From assembly GCA_025057635.1 (NCBI GenBank), contig JANXBD010000001.1, positions 1-64,000 on the forward strand: a stretch of DNA of 64,000 bases, in the 5' to 3' direction. Below the pieces are notes generated by a model, which made no database searches, was not told the origin of the DNA, and was given only the letters and a program-made list of their open reading frames with translations. This DNA comes from Thermoflexus sp. (GTDB lineage: Bacteria > Chloroflexota > Anaerolineae > Thermoflexales > Thermoflexaceae). Made by a program: the position numbers and the translations under genes. Positions 55,783 through 62,609 of the stretch are shown one piece after another (positions within the stretch are counted from its first letter, which is position 1; each line of letters starts with the position of its first letter).

Positions 55783-57015
55783 TCAGTCCCGCTCCTCCGG
55801 AGCGCGGGGTTCCCCGCGCAGGCCCCGAGTAACCAAGCCCTGAACCTTTAGAGGAAGCCCGAACAGCCGGATGAAGCCAGCAGCATCCTTATGATCGTAA
55901 GCCCCTGCTGTGTCAAAGGAGACAATATCCTCCCGGTAGAGGCTATAGGGCGAACGTCGACCTACTACGAAAACGTTCCCTTTATATAGCTTTAGCCGCA
56001 CTTCCCCAGTGACATTCCGCATCACAGTCCTCACGAAGGCATCCATTGCCTCCCGCAGAGGGCTGAACCACCAGCCGTAGTAAACCAGCTCCGCATATCG
56101 CAACGCCAGGCCCTGTTTGAAATGCATCGTCTCGCGATCTAAGCACAAACTTTCCAACGCTCTTAGGGCCTCGATCAGGATGGTGCCTCCTGGCGTCTCG
56201 TAAACGCCACGGGATTTCATCCCTACCAGTCGATTCTCTACGAGGTCTACCCGCCCGACGCCGTGCTTCGCGCCCAGGGCATTGAGCGCCTCCATAAGAG
56301 GAACGAGCTCTATGGGCTGGCCGTTCAGGGCAACAGGAACTCCCTGTTCGAAGGCCAAGGTAAGGATCTCTGGAGTTTCCGGCGCCTTTATGGGATCCAC
56401 CGTCCATAGGAAGACATCATCCTCGGGCTCCCAGTCGGGATTCTCCAGCGGACCGCCTTCGTGGGAGATGTGCCAGAGGTTGCGATCGCGGCTGTAGCGG
56501 CTAGCACTCCATTCGATGGGAACACCACGGGCTCGTGCGTATTCGTAAGCTTCTCGGCGGGAGGTGATAGACCACTCCCGCCATGGGGCAATCACCCGCA
56601 GATGCGGTGCGAGGGCTTGATAGGCCAGCTCAAAGCGAACTTGGTCGTTGCCCTTCCCAGTCGCTCCATGGGCCACCGCGTCCGCCCCCTCTTGGAGAGC
56701 GATCTCCACCTGATGCTTAGCGATCAGGGGGCGTGCCATCGCTGTCCCCAGCAGGTATTTGCCCTCATAGACTGCTCCGGCCTGCACGGTAGGAAGCACA
56801 TAATCCCGCAGAAACTCCTCTCGCAGATCCCGAATGATCACCTTCGAGGCCCCACCGGCATAGGCGCGCTCCTCGAGCCCCTTCATCTCTTCAGCCCCCT
56901 GGCCGATGTCAGCGCAGAAGGCGATCACCTCGCACCCGTAAGTCTCCCGCAACCATGGGATAATTGTGGAGGTGTCCAGACCGCCGGAATAGGCCAGCAC
57001 CACTTTGCGAACCAT
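55783..57015 (-). CDS. argG: Argininosuccinate synthase
   Basis: '[40 protein letters not shown]', '[19 protein letters not shown]'. Confidence 0.96.
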
Positions 57016-57117: not shown

Positions 57118-57570
57118 TCATTCCAGGCTTAAAGCTACTGCCACTTCATCACAGCGCTCCCGAAGCGGGCAATTTACACAATCGCGCCATACCTTCTCGG
57201 GGAAGCGGTCTCGTTCTGAGAGGGTAAAGCCTAGGCGCTCGAAGAAGGGAACCGCTCGGGTGAGAGCGAAGACCGTGCGGGCACCCGCAGATCGTGCCCG
57301 TTCCACTAACGCTCGCACGATCGCTCCCCCCACCCCGTTCCCTTGATAGGCTTCATCTACAGCTAAAGAACGGATTTCAACTAGAGTGGGGGACATCCAC
57401 ACCAAGGAGCCACAGCCGGCGATCCGGCCCTCCGCCTCAGCGACTACCCAGTCTGGGAGTGTGGCAGCGATCTCTTCCGCGCTCCGTGGAAGGAGCCATC
57501 CCCGCCGGGCGTAGTCGTTCACCAGCGCATGGAGGATCGGGATGTCCTCCGGACGGGCCGGACGGATTTG
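57118..57570 (-). CDS. argA: GNAT N-acetyltransferase, short ArgA-type (putative N-acetylglutamate synthase)
   Basis: 'IRPARPEDIPILHALVNDYARRGWLLPRS', 'EIRSLAVDEAYQGNGVGGAIV', 'FPEKVWRDCVNCPLRERCDEVAV' tail; located inside the arg cluster. Confidence 0.75.
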   Translation of the reverse strand, partial: QIRPARPEDIPILHALVNDYARRGWLLPRSAEEIAATLPDWVVAEAEGRIAGCGSLVWMSPTLVEIRSLAVDEAYQGNGVGGAIVRALVERARSAGARTVFALTRAVPFFERLGFTLSERDRFPEKVWRDCVNCPLRERCDEVAVALSLE

Positions 57571-57666
57571 CATGGGTTTCCCTCCCTTCCAGTTTTGGTG
57601 AAGGTTGTCAGCTCCCTTAGAAGCCACTGCAGATGAAACTTTCATAGCAACCCGAAGAACCTATTC

Positions 57667-58854
57667 CTAGGCCCTCATGGCCTCATGAAGGATGGCAATT
57701 GCTTCGTCGATATGAGATTTCTCCACGACCAGCGGGGGGATCATACGCACTACGTAATCGCCAGCTGTAGTGAGAAGCAGCCCTCGCTCTAGGGCGGCTG
57801 TCGTTACATTCCGAGCCTCGCCTTCGATCTCGATCCCTACGAGAAGGCCCCGTCCACGAATCTCCCGAACGCCGGGAAGCGCCGCCGCACGCAAGCGTTC
57901 CATCAGATAGGCTCCCATTTCCCTTACGTGAGCGAGGAAAGCGGGCGATCGGAGGCGCTCGAAGACGTAAAGGGCGACTGCGCTCACTAGTGGCCCTCCC
58001 GCGAATGTGCTGCCGTGATCGCCCGGTTGCAATACGGTGGCCACTTTCTCCTTCATCAGCACTGCGCCGATAGGCAACCCGTTGGCCAACGGTTTGGCTA
58101 TCGTCAGCAGGTCGGGCTCCACCTCATACGCCTCATATGCCCATAGCGTCCCCGTGCGCCCCAGGCCGCATTGCACCTCATCAAAAATCAGAAGAGCTCC
58201 TACTTCATCGCACCGCTTCCGAAGCACCCGCAGAAATTCCGGCGAGGCGACATATACGCCTCCCTCCCCCTGAATCGGCTCTACGATCACAGCACAGGTT
58301 TCTGAGGTGATGGCTGAGCTAGCTGCCTCCACATCATTAAAGGGGGCGAAAGTCACACCGGGAATCAGGGGGATGAAGGGCTCACGGTAGGCAGGCTTCT
58401 CGGTCACCGAAAGGGCACCCATGGTGCGCCCATGGAAGCTATGAGTGAAGGCGACCAAACCGGTCTTATGGGCGCCATAGTGAGTCCGGGCGAACTTGCG
58501 AGCGAACTTGAGGGCCGCTTCCACCGCTTCCGCTCCGGAATTACAGAAGAAGACGCGGTCAGCGAAGCTGTAAGCCACCAAAGCTTCTGCTAGGCGCAAA
58601 TGGGGCTCCGTATGATAGAGGTTGCTGAGGTGAACCAATCGTCGGGCCTGCTCCGCAATCACTTGAGCGACTCCAGGGTCGGCATGGCCCAGAGCGCACA
58701 CCGCGATCCCAGCCACGAAGTCCAGGTAGCGTCGGCCGGCTGTATCGTATACGTACATCCCCTCGCCATGGGTGAAGATGATGGGCGGCCGTCGGTAGGT
58801 TGGTGCCAGTGCCCGCTCCGCGAGGGCCATCAGTTCTTCTACGTTTACGTTCAT
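57667..58854 (-). CDS. argD: Acetylornithine aminotransferase
   Basis: 'FCNSGAEAVEAALKFARKF', 'FDEVQCGLGRTGTLWAYE', 'IAKPLANGLPIGAVL', 'GDHGSTFAGGPL'. Confidence 0.92.
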   Translation of the reverse strand: MNVNVEELMALAERALAPTYRRPPIIFTHGEGMYVYDTAGRRYLDFVAGIAVCALGHADPGVAQVIAEQARRLVHLSNLYHTEPHLRLAEALVAYSFADRVFFCNSGAEAVEAALKFARKFARTHYGAHKTGLVAFTHSFHGRTMGALSVTEKPAYREPFIPLIPGVTFAPFNDVEAASSAITSETCAVIVEPIQGEGGVYVASPEFLRVLRKRCDEVGALLIFDEVQCGLGRTGTLWAYEAYEVEPDLLTIAKPLANGLPIGAVLMKEKVATVLQPGDHGSTFAGGPLVSAVALYVFERLRSPAFLAHVREMGAYLMERLRAAALPGVREIRGRGLLVGIEIEGEARNVTTAALERGLLLTTAGDYVVRMIPPLVVEKSHIDEAIAILHEAMRA

Positions 58855-59618
58855 GCGTTTATTTCCCTCCTCACGATCTCAGTGCCCCCTTGCCGAAGCC
58901 CTACCAGGTTTGTGATCCGCACGCGGCGCACGCCAGCTGCAAGAGCCTCCAAGGCTGAACGAACCTTGGGCACCATTCCATCGCGGATGATTCCAGCATT
59001 AATCAGGGCTTCCGCCTCTTCTTCATTGAGTGAGGGCCGGACTGTTTCGCCCACCCAAACCCCAGGCACATTAGTGAGGAAGACGAGCTCATCCGCGGGG
59101 AGTGCGGCAGCGATGGCTGCTGCCATATGGTCGGCATTCACATTGTAGAGCCCATCTGGCCCGAGGCCGATAGGGGCGATCACGGGGAGAATCCCCTCCA
59201 CAATCCATCGTCGAAGCCGTCCGACATCCACCTCGACGGGTTTTCCGACCCATCCCAGGTCCGGCACAGGACTCACCCGCACTAAACCCAGATCCACCCC
59301 GCATACTCCCAAGACAGGTAGGCCGGCCCGCAGGAGGGCAGCCACTAAACTCTTGTTGGTCAGTCCCGCTAGGGTCATCACAGCCAGCTCACGGGTCTCC
59401 TCGTCGGTCACCCGCAGGCCATTCACGTAGCGAGGGGTGATACCAACTCGTTGCTGCCAGGCGCTCATCGACTTTCCACCGCCATGAACGAGAATTGGGG
59501 GCAGGGGGAGCTCCTTTAGGGCAATTCCCAGATGCTCTAAAAAGGAGGGCTGGTCTAACTCATTTCCCCCGATCTTAATCACTTGCAGCGGTTGTCCATT
59601 CTCGGTTGTATACCTCAT
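58851..59618 (-). CDS. argB: Acetylglutamate kinase
   Basis: 'VIKIGGNELDQ', 'ILVHGGGKSMSAW', 'YNVNADHMAAAIAAAL', 'GMVPKVRSALEAL'; stop overlaps argD start. Confidence 0.93.
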   Translation of the reverse strand: MRYTTENGQPLQVIKIGGNELDQPSFLEHLGIALKELPLPPILVHGGGKSMSAWQQRVGITPRYVNGLRVTDEETRELAVMTLAGLTNKSLVAALLRAGLPVLGVCGVDLGLVRVSPVPDLGWVGKPVEVDVGRLRRWIVEGILPVIAPIGLGPDGLYNVNADHMAAAIAAALPADELVFLTNVPGVWVGETVRPSLNEEEAEALINAGIIRDGMVPKVRSALEALAAGVRRVRITNLVGLRQGGTEIVRREINA

Positions 59619-59689: not shown

Positions 59690-60703
59690 TTACATCAGTC
59701 CGGCGGTCTCCGGTATTCCGAACATCACGTTCATGTTCTGCACGGCCTGCCCGGCAGCGCCCTTGATGAGGTTGTCAATTGAAACAGTCAGAATGACCAT
59801 GCCAGCCTCCGGAACGCCGGTCACCGCTAGCACGCAAAAGTTTGTGCCAACGCTATGGCGGAGCGTAGCCACGGTGCCTGACGGGAGCACCTTCACAAAC
59901 GGCTCCAGACGGTAAGTCTCCACCAGCAGCTCCCGAACCATCCCCTCCGTCCAGTTGGGGGCTAAAGGCACGTAGATCGTGGCTAGGATCCCCCGGGCTA
60001 CCGGAAGCAACTGAGGAGAGAACACCAGAGGGCCAATCGATCCGTTGAACGCATGAAGCATCTGCTCGATCTCCGGAAGATGCCGGTGAACCCGGCCGAT
60101 ACTATAAGGAGAGAGATTCTCATCCACTTCCACAAAGTGGGTGTTCAGAGAAGGCTTACGGCCTGCCCCCGAGACACCTGACTTGGCGTCCACGATGATC
60201 GGGCCAGGGCCGACAGCGCCCGCCTGAGCAAGCGGAAGTAAAGCCAGCAAGGTCGCCGTTGGGTAGCAGCCCGGGTTAGCGATCAGACGAGCGGAGCAGA
60301 TCGCGGGTCGGTTCCATTCCGTCAGTCCATAAACCGCTTCCGCGAGAAGATCAGGGGCGGGATGTTCCTCCTTATACCATCGCGCATAAGACGAGGGGTC
60401 TTTCAGCCGGAAATCGGCTGAGAGATCGATCACGCGGACTCCCATCGCGAGGGCCTGGCGGGCAACAGAAGCGGAGACGCCATGGGGCAATGCGAGGAAC
60501 ACCACATCGACCTGATCCAGCGGAGCTTCGGCAAAGCCTACAACTCGAAAGTCTTCCGTCACTGGGAACAACTGGGCAAGAGAGCTCCCAGCCCCACTCT
60601 CCGAAGCAGAGAAGACGATTCGCACCATCGGGTGTCGTCGTAACAGCCGGAAGACCTCAAACCCGGCATATCCGCTTACTCCATAAATCCCTGCCCGAAT
60701 CAT
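59690..60703 (-). CDS. argC: N-acetyl-gamma-glutamyl-phosphate reductase
   Basis: 'IRAGIYGVSGYAGFEVFRLLRRHP', 'IANPGCYPTATLLALLPL', 'DAKSGVSGAGRKP'; SD AAGGAGG 6 nt before ATGATTCGG. Confidence 0.94.
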   Translation of the reverse strand: MIRAGIYGVSGYAGFEVFRLLRRHPMVRIVFSASESGAGSSLAQLFPVTEDFRVVGFAEAPLDQVDVVFLALPHGVSASVARQALAMGVRVIDLSADFRLKDPSSYARWYKEEHPAPDLLAEAVYGLTEWNRPAICSARLIANPGCYPTATLLALLPLAQAGAVGPGPIIVDAKSGVSGAGRKPSLNTHFVEVDENLSPYSIGRVHRHLPEIEQMLHAFNGSIGPLVFSPQLLPVARGILATIYVPLAPNWTEGMVRELLVETYRLEPFVKVLPSGTVATLRHSVGTNFCVLAVTGVPEAGMVILTVSIDNLIKGAAGQAVQNMNVMFGIPETAGLM

Positions 60704-60835
60704 CGCCATCCTCCTTAGAGAAGGCCCTTGTGATTTACCAGGGACTTCTTCTCTTTGTCGAGATGAGGGGCCACGCGGTGTATTCGTGCGGAGATGAGCG
60801 ACCCGTAATGCGAAGGGTTGGGTTTTAGACCAAAT

Positions 60836-60868
60836 AAAAACCCCCCGAGCATCGGAGCCCGGGGGGTT
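60836..60868 (-). terminator. Intrinsic terminator in the argC leader (putative attenuator)
   Basis: Minus strand AACCCCCCGGGC-TCCGAT-GCTCGGGGGGTT then TTTATTT: 12-bp stem with one G-U and a T-run. Confidence 0.85.
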
Positions 60869-60897
60869 GGAATTTACACCTATGAAATGATTAGGGT

Positions 60898-60993
60898 TCA
60901 ACAGCCAAACCCTCGCCTCCCCGCACCGGACCCCGTGCCCGGCGGTGTCTCTGGGCGACGGATGCGTGGGAAGCGAGCGAGGCCGTTCAACAT
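60898..60993 (-). CDS. Putative 31-aa leader peptide upstream of argC
   Basis: MLNGLARFPRIRRPETPPGTGSGAGRRGFGC*; SD GAGGTGAGG directly upstream; between promoter and terminator. Confidence 0.55.
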   Translation of the reverse strand: MLNGLARFPRIRRPETPPGTGSGAGRRGFGC

Positions 60994-61024
60994 CCTCACC
61001 TCGATCTTGGTAGATTACGCATAG

Positions 61025-61053
61025 ATGATAACCCGCTTTCGGCAACTTGTCAA
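61025..61053 (-). promoter_or_regulatory. Sigma70-type promoter of the arg leader/operon
   Basis: Minus strand TTGACA (61048-61053), N17, TATCAT (61025-61030). Confidence 0.75.
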
Positions 61054-61235
61054 GAAACGCCATGCTAAGATGGCAAGCAACGATTTTCTCTCCTTGGTTC
61101 TTGATAGGGAGATCCTTTGCCTGCGCAAGCAGCGTCGAATTCACAGCGCGCGTATGTCCAACCGAAGCCACATTCCGTTATGGAAGTTTATCAAAGAAGA
61201 GCAGCAGCCTCAGCTTCCTCCCGCTTTCCAAATGC

Positions 61236-61451
61236 TCATCCAAAGCCGCTACTCTCCATGGAGCTTACTGCCCGATTGATTAGCTCCACGAGCTCATGCC
61301 ACTCTTCCTCGGTCAGGTGGATTGACACATTCCCCAGCTCGAGGTGGAAAAGGGACTGGCCATCATCGCTGATGCTGCGCCAAAGGGTGAAATGATCAGT
61401 TTCTGCCAGGGGCTCCATCTCAAACTCGTCTTCGGGATCGTCCATAAACAT
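61236..61451 (-). CDS. Small acidic hypothetical protein
   Basis: 71 aa 'FTLWRSISDDGQSLFHLELGNVSIHLTEEEWHELVELINRAV'; coding-like composition. Confidence 0.6.
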   Translation of the reverse strand: MFMDDPEDEFEMEPLAETDHFTLWRSISDDGQSLFHLELGNVSIHLTEEEWHELVELINRAVSSMESSGFG

Positions 61452-61574
61452 GGGATCCTCCCTTGCCTCTTAAGGATCTTCTGAAAATGTGAAAAACAAT
61501 CCCTCAGTCCCACGACTCCTAACAGAAGCTTGTCAGTTCTCCATGTTGCGGTTCCTGTCGGATCCCTCTCCAAA

Positions 61575-62609
61575 TCAAGAGGGGTTCTCTTGCTTGCGCC
61601 ATGCGGCTAAATCCACAGTAAGGCGGGTAAAGAAGCTGTTTGGAGGGAGCGCTCCGGTGCCGTACTCCATTTCGACCACCCGAGCCCGCAACCGTAGATC
61701 CCGGGTCTCGATTTCGAGGATGGCACCAGGGCTTGCCAACATCAGATCCCCCTTCTGACGCAACCGCGCTTGAAGCCCAGCATCCCGATAAGCATACTCG
61801 CTGGCCAGCACTTTAGTGACTGTCTTGATATCATTCTTATCGAACAGCCAGACTTCAAAAGCAGTAACCTTCGCTGGGTCTCCTACTCCAATGGTCTCTG
61901 AGATGCTGACCCCATATTCACCAAGAAACTCCCCGTTGGGCAGCTCCAGAGCGAACGAGAGGTCAAAATGATCGTCTCCCAGTTTGTAGGTCACCTGATG
62001 CTGGGATAGAGGAGGTAACCAAGTCGCAGGATAAGCTTCTCCGGGAGCCGGTCGTTCAGGGGTGAGGGGCGCCGCTGGCGGACCTTTAGGAGCAGGGGGT
62101 GGAGCCAAACGTCGGGGGAGGGACGTTGAAAATGGACGGCGCAGGAGCCAGAATCCGCCGATACCCACCAGAACCAGCACAGCTAAGCCAATCAGACATG
62201 GGAACAAAATCCCCCCCCTCTGGGCGGGCGCGGGAGGCAAAGGGATCTGCTCCCATACCTCTCCCAATCGCTCCATGGTGTCCCGACGAGCAGGATCGGT
62301 CTCCGTCTGGGCCAACCGGCGAATCTCCCGCGCCGCATCCCGGGGGTTCCATCGCTGTCCTAGCCAGTCAGCGCTGTCCTCTAGGCTTAGGAACCCAGCT
62401 CGGACTGCATCCGCTAACAGGCGCAGGTAATTCTCTCGGTAGTCCACCCGTAGATCCACAGGCGCGGCATCTATCCATTCCACCGGGGCGATGTACCAGC
62501 CGTATATCAGGCCGCTGGCCAATCCGAGCACAAAGGCTACCGATCCGACCACAAGGAACTGACGGTAGGGTCTAAGGAGAATTTCAAGGGCTTGGAGCAG
62601 TATTTTCAC
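61575..62609 (-). CDS. Membrane protein of unknown function
   Basis: 344 aa, N-terminal TM, second TM 'GILFPCLIGLAVLVLVGIGGFWLL', C-terminal soluble domain. Confidence 0.75.
   Translation of the reverse strand: MKILLQALEILLRPYRQFLVVGSVAFVLGLASGLIYGWYIAPVEWIDAAPVDLRVDYRENYLRLLADAVRAGFLSLEDSADWLGQRWNPRDAAREIRRLAQTETDPARRDTMERLGEVWEQIPLPPAPAQRGGILFPCLIGLAVLVLVGIGGFWLLRRPFSTSLPRRLAPPPAPKGPPAAPLTPERPAPGEAYPATWLPPLSQHQVTYKLGDDHFDLSFALELPNGEFLGEYGVSISETIGVGDPAKVTAFEVWLFDKNDIKTVTKVLASEYAYRDAGLQARLRQKGDLMLASPGAILEIETRDLRLRARVVEMEYGTGALPPNSFFTRLTVDLAAWRKQENPS

Follow-up and report, generated by a model that had tools for sequence, protein, structure and literature searches.

In the trp, his, leu and thr attenuators of the Escherichia coli type, a leader ORF with clustered codons for the cognate amino acid is combined with a terminator and with an antiterminator that excludes it. 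Leader-peptide attenuation is textbook material for Trp, His, Leu, Ile/Val, Thr and Phe, and arginine operons are taught as being controlled by ArgR: this DNA-binding repressor (ArgR/AhrC) is the usual control of the argC operon in many bacteria. In fungi, the arginine attenuator peptide encoded by the upstream ORF of arg-2/CPA1 acts at translation, where excess arginine arrests the ribosome through the nascent peptide. In Actinobacteria, a survey predicted leader regulation for trp, leu (including leuS), ilv and cys genes (PMC1262725). The speF leader of Salmonella harbours ORF34 with two consecutive Arg codons and acts via Rho, ribosome-site masking and RNase G (PMC6386406). A survey of RNA regulons that covers Chloroflexi does not mention arginine (PMC3766115), and a bacterial transcription attenuator for arginine biosynthesis was not found in the searchable literature. 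Here a leader upstream of argC in Thermoflexus sp. is described which, as read from sequence, is a complete and conserved arginine attenuator with a predicted response in vivo, and one instance of an arrangement that recurs in Anaerolineae.

Architecture of the argC leader

The window, that is, the whole 64,000-nt stretch of DNA analysed, carries on its minus strand (the strand of all window features below) the series that had been proposed from its letters: promoter, Shine-Dalgarno sequence, 31-codon ORF, strong terminator and then argC. All of these were recovered, with the leader peptide exactly as originally quoted. The sigma-70-type promoter TTGACA-N17-TATCAT (61025..61053) matches the consensus at 11 of 12 positions. 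It is followed by a Shine-Dalgarno sequence, GAGGTGAGG (60994..61002), which has a comparable purine-rich stretch in most relatives, and by the leader ORF (60898..60993), whose 31 codons plus TGA encode MLNGLARFPRIRRPETPPGTGSGAGRRGFGC. Four Arg codons (7, 10, 12 and 13) fall within codons 7–13, RFPRIRR (60955..60975), as had been noted, and two further ones are codons 26 and 27. The intrinsic terminator with its T tract occupies 60832..60868 (hairpin 60868-60839), and argC starts at the ATG at 60703, behind its own Shine-Dalgarno sequence AAGGAGGA (60709..60716, assigned by sequence). The leader as a whole is more stable than 100 of 100 dinucleotide shuffles (folding z = −4.35).

Two further features of this region were observed. 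The argC frame is open through the whole leader, forming a 493-codon GTG ORF (59690-61171), thus automated gene calling could start argC too early, take in the leader and hide the attenuator. In addition, a hairpin AGAGAAG...CTTCTCT (60756-60713) lies immediately 5′ of the argC Shine-Dalgarno sequence, in a spacer that is unconserved in relatives.

The genes downstream had been read as argC-argB-argD-argA-argG, and for four of them Pfam domains support that reading: argC, encoding N-acetyl-gamma-glutamyl-phosphate reductase (59690..60703; PF01118, PF22698 and PF02774), argB, of the amino acid kinase family (58851..59618; PF00696), argD, a class-III aminotransferase (57667..58854; PF00202), and argG, encoding argininosuccinate synthase (55783..57015; PF00764 and PF20979). 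The presumed argA encodes a GNAT acetyltransferase (57118..57573; PF00583; its start is uncertain, as the ORF may open at 57645) and is retained as a candidate only. A second argC-like gene, 40% identical, is located outside the window in the vicinity of a leuA/homocitrate-synthase-like gene (G000:C116:17824-23486); this locus may be a cluster for a lysine pathway of the LysW type. Many Anaerolineae have comparable second copies.

Conservation of the leader within the genus

When 41 genomes were searched at the DNA level, each of the eight further genus members proved to carry the leader, and no match to it appeared in the 32 genomes belonging to other families. The leader core was also made into a covariance model (R1), which counted one copy per genus genome and gave no convincing match among 388 genomes from the rest of the class; its best match outside the genus (G049, L023) turned out on reading to be no such leader, in a genome without an argC match at 1e-30.

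The order of elements is identical in the alignment of all nine genus genomes. The promoter is kept in each as TTGACA-17-TAT(C/G)AT. The leader ORF has exactly 31 codons from one fixed start point in all nine, with ATG in eight and ACG in one (G003, which has alternative starts), and always ends in TGA or TAA. The terminator is likewise kept in nine of nine, with an invariant CGATG in or near its loop and a compensatory replacement of G-C by A-U, and it begins 24–51 nt after the ORF stop. Codons 7–13 encode RFPRIRR throughout, and not one of the Arg codons at 7, 10, 12 and 13 is replaced. Conservation of ORF and terminator among relatives, and the fixity of the Arg codons, were the sequence-level points on which the original prediction had staked itself, and both have been borne out. 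A further idea, that a Pro-Pro-Gly motif assists stalling, lost its ground, since codons 17–18 are Pro-Pro solely in the window genome: seven of the eight relatives have LPG and one (G003) has LLG.

The third positions of codons 7–13 are also nearly invariant across the nine genomes. Constraint from RNA pairing is thus inseparable from constraint on the peptide within the genus, and the case for arginine is carried by the other families.

Predicted switch between antiterminator and terminator

Codons 16–25 of the leader ORF (60946-60919) are complementary to the 5′ arm, the loop and the 3′ arm of the terminator, with which they can form 24 pairs. In each of the nine genomes this complementarity is equalled by at most 2 of 1,000 dinucleotide shuffles, and the duplex of ORF and terminator is computed at −42 to −56 kcal mol−1, compared with averages of −27 to −37 kcal mol−1 for the shuffles. 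Over the nine genomes, 98.1% of the cells of the 24 pairs are paired, compared with 30–67% if the alignment of the two segments is slid by 1–3 columns. Seven of the 24 pairs vary among the genomes, mostly via wobble and without two-sided changes, so that the evidence is of compatibility and not of covariation. The window genome itself has two mismatches (ATC to ACG), and its antiterminator still folds. An earlier candidate for this pairing, GGGTTTGG with CCAACCC of the terminator 5′ arm, does exist in the window genome but is unconserved and private to it; the conserved antiterminator is that of codons 16–25 with the terminator core and loop.

A third helix, here termed the protector hairpin (60911..60978), joins codons 6–11 to codons 23–28 and buries the antiterminator; the control codons 7–13 thereby serve also as its 5′ arm. 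Its 24-pair consensus is mostly retained in the genus through C-G to U-A and wobble changes. The complementarity of CCTCGC and GCGAGG that had been pointed out in the leader is genuine and forms the outer part of this hairpin.

The RNA downstream of a ribosome set at each codon in turn was folded. In all nine leaders, at both 37 and 65 °C, the antiterminator is dominant with the ribosome at codons 8–11; the limits of this range extend from codon 4 in several genomes and up to codon 12 in most, with codon 13 mixed. The terminator is favoured without a ribosome, at codons 1–2 and from codon 15 onward. A variant of the scan that also let the RNA behind the ribosome pair gave a similar but less clean trend. 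As computed, therefore, the antiterminator is mutually exclusive with the terminator and would become available once a ribosome sits on the control codons, and the protector hairpin is predicted to make termination the default when the leader is not translated. In most genomes the stall window takes in Arg codons 7, 10 and 12, with Arg codon 13 on its border. Codons for Phe, Pro and Ile share this window, thus specificity for arginine would arise through the number of Arg codons and not through their exclusivity.

Taken together, the parts conserved in nine genomes, the conserved antiterminator pairing and the class-wide Arg-cluster ORFs described below support the original reading of a leader in which ribosomes stall on Arg codons: the leader is very probably a classical ribosome-mediated transcription attenuator by which the availability of charged Arg-tRNA is sensed. 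All defining features of such an attenuator that a sequence can reveal are found, or predicted, in the window leader. We infer that in the cell the leader ORF is translated, that ribosomes stall on it and that antitermination follows, in the following way. Transcription would begin at the conserved promoter, with a ribosome translating the 31-codon ORF in the wake of RNA polymerase. A shortage of charged Arg-tRNA would make this ribosome halt on the Arg codons within 7–13, covering the 5′ arm of the protector hairpin and leaving codons 16–25 bare; these would then engage the terminator core and loop through 24 pairs, no terminator would form, and argC-argB-argD-GNAT-argG would be transcribed. 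When arginine is plentiful, the ribosome would proceed and cover the antiterminator; after its departure the protector hairpin would re-form, the terminator would fold and transcription would end. Without translation the protector hairpin would also form, making termination the default.

Recurrence of arginine clusters in Anaerolineae

Arg-cluster ORFs, defined as short ORFs with at least four Arg in eight codons that end shortly before a terminator upstream of argC, were found in 34 of 57 other Anaerolineae regions with a terminator, as compared with 5.0 expected from dinucleotide shuffles; since the surveyed genomes are related, such counts are not those of independent events. Amino acids other than Arg were near chance in the 57 regions, none being clearly enriched. 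The 34 positives are spread over about 15 families, and examples of their peptides, each ending at a stop codon, are RSPRSPRRMQPDRWSG, FPRRPRPPRTTGLVFKVA, RYPRRPRMVAPDDVSG and ELRRPRRRPQTNPVWQG. A second set (Anaerolineales, Caldilineaceae and other Anaerolineae/Chloroflexi MAGs), which includes some close relatives of the first, gave nine of 10 against 0.5 expected. At control loci of the same class, an Arg-cluster ORF was found at trpE in one of 17 regions with a terminator, and the 29 leuA regions held no terminator.

When a terminator was no longer required, Arg clusters at argC numbered 37 in the class (8.8 expected), 14 elsewhere in the phylum (10.1 expected) and 8 in other phyla (5.0 expected). 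Most other argC upstream regions outside Anaerolineae showed no Arg leader; in another Chloroflexota class, an ORF beginning MKKQMLTNLFSPALRLRRPRTNEVRW before a terminator is common to five genomes of one family. In other Chloroflexota classes, Arg-rich short ORFs were also seen upstream of argC (L199, L207 and L214; for example, RTLRRFRRPGCTGLEG) where the scan found no terminator, and these may be a variant of the arrangement. The Arg clusters at argC in other phyla (three of 21 regions with terminators) were rejected as leaders: all end in an ARRRKQFSKR-like sequence resembling the C terminus of ribosomal protein S9. Such an S9-like Arg-rich sequence just upstream of argC, which mimics an Arg leader, was noted in some Proteobacteria (L155, L188 and L193).

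In the clusters of other families all six Arg codons are used (CGT 80, CGC 71, AGG 29, CGA 19, CGG 11 and AGA 1), thus the constraint acts on arginine. Near the ORF end of many of these leaders GTCTGG matches CCAGAC of the terminator, in reading frames that differ (WSG followed by the stop in some, GLVF in others), thus the segment appears to be conserved as RNA. With a ribosome placed so that the last Arg codon is in its A site, the terminator 5′ arm was sequestered in 42 of 48 leaders, a modest excess over the shuffle expectation of 27.1; with the ribosome at the stop codon it was sequestered in 10 of 48, a contrast partly due to the available length. Equilibrium folding in other families seldom favoured the antiterminator over the completed terminator. 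With that test mostly negative and the 5′-arm test alone supportive, the mechanism is less well supported outside the genus than within it.

The DNA-binding domain of ArgR was found in none of the nine genus genomes, control genomes scoring positive, and it is essentially absent from the class: 200 genomes gave five weak partial matches, one of them barely over the cut-off. On balance, we lean towards arginine attenuation being an old trait that takes the place of ArgR throughout the class Anaerolineae and in one or more families of another Chloroflexota class, with only the Arg codons and the logic inherited and with the peptide, the antiterminator frame and the terminator sequence repeatedly rebuilt.

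Alternative explanations

Beyond arginine, residues F8, P9, I11, G19, G21, G23 and G25 of the leader peptide are invariant in the genus, as would be expected if free arginine or some other ligand, and not a lack of charged tRNA, made the conserved peptide RFPRIRRPExLPGIGSGAGR arrest the ribosome, as happens with the fungal peptide. The downstream ones among these residues, however, coincide with the antiterminator and protector RNA, and the peptide, conserved in the genus where it overlaps conserved RNA structure, is not conserved in other families, which share only the Arg cluster. Moreover, stalling at high arginine would cause antitermination when the amino acid is abundant, the opposite of what a biosynthetic operon needs. 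Nascent-peptide arrest is thus an improbable account of the leader, if the best of the alternatives.

The distance between terminator and argC, predicted at about 130 nt and measured at 135 nt in the window, ranges from 40 to 260 nt across the genus, and the longer gaps would leave room for a promoter of argC's own, with the terminator ending either a distinct short RNA or a transcript from upstream. Yet the gap is only about 40 nt in three relatives, and its sequence varies, in contrast to the conserved promoter, ORF and terminator. Within 60000-62000 the only promoter-like site is TTGACA-17-TATCAT at 61053-61025, which leaves none 3′ of the terminator. Given this and the 40-nt spacers, a separate argC promoter is highly unlikely.

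Least probable of all is a small-molecule riboswitch or T-box in place of a translated leader: the very high nucleotide conservation and stable hairpins would suit one, but Rfam families gave only sub-threshold matches at the argC leaders (none at the gathering score and no T-box, RF00230), ORF position and length are kept in nine genomes despite two different stop codons, and Arg is enriched across families with unrelated sequences through all six of its codons.

As a separate observation, a T-box leader (RF00230) lies upstream of trpE in an Anaerolineae genome (L278:1024-1351, plus strand), and in the trpE regions of the genus (L289-L291), which also have a strong terminator, no T-box exceeds the gathering score. 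The class may use one RNA mechanism to sense arginine and another for tryptophan.

Discussion

If the leader acts as a charged-tRNA-sensing attenuator, an Arg-specific attenuator recurrent in a class that lacks ArgR would account for the control of arginine synthesis there, and attenuation would gain one amino acid and one phylum. The leaders of the class would also form a set of naturally rewired attenuators whose RNA switch varies while their control codons are kept.

Among known systems, ArgR/AhrC control is set apart by the absence of the ArgR domain from the genus of the window. The fungal arginine attenuator peptide resembles the leader in that a short upstream ORF controls a gene of arginine synthesis, but it is eukaryotic and translational and has no transcription terminator. 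T-boxes likewise sense tRNA charging and switch a terminator, but do so without a translated ORF. The speF leader of Salmonella is similar in that slowing of the ribosome on Arg codons at low arginine refolds the RNA and raises expression; it differs in controlling ornithine decarboxylase, not arginine biosynthesis, and in having no switch between an intrinsic terminator and an antiterminator (PMC6386406).

The likeness is closest to the classical trp, his, leu and thr attenuators, with which the leader shares an ORF of cognate codons, an intrinsic terminator, an exclusive antiterminator and a third hairpin that is predicted to make termination the default. Unlike them, its cognate amino acid is arginine and its phylum Chloroflexota, and its antiterminator, located within the ORF, is complementary to almost all of the terminator, that is, 5′ arm, loop and 3′ arm, instead of mainly to the 5′ arm.
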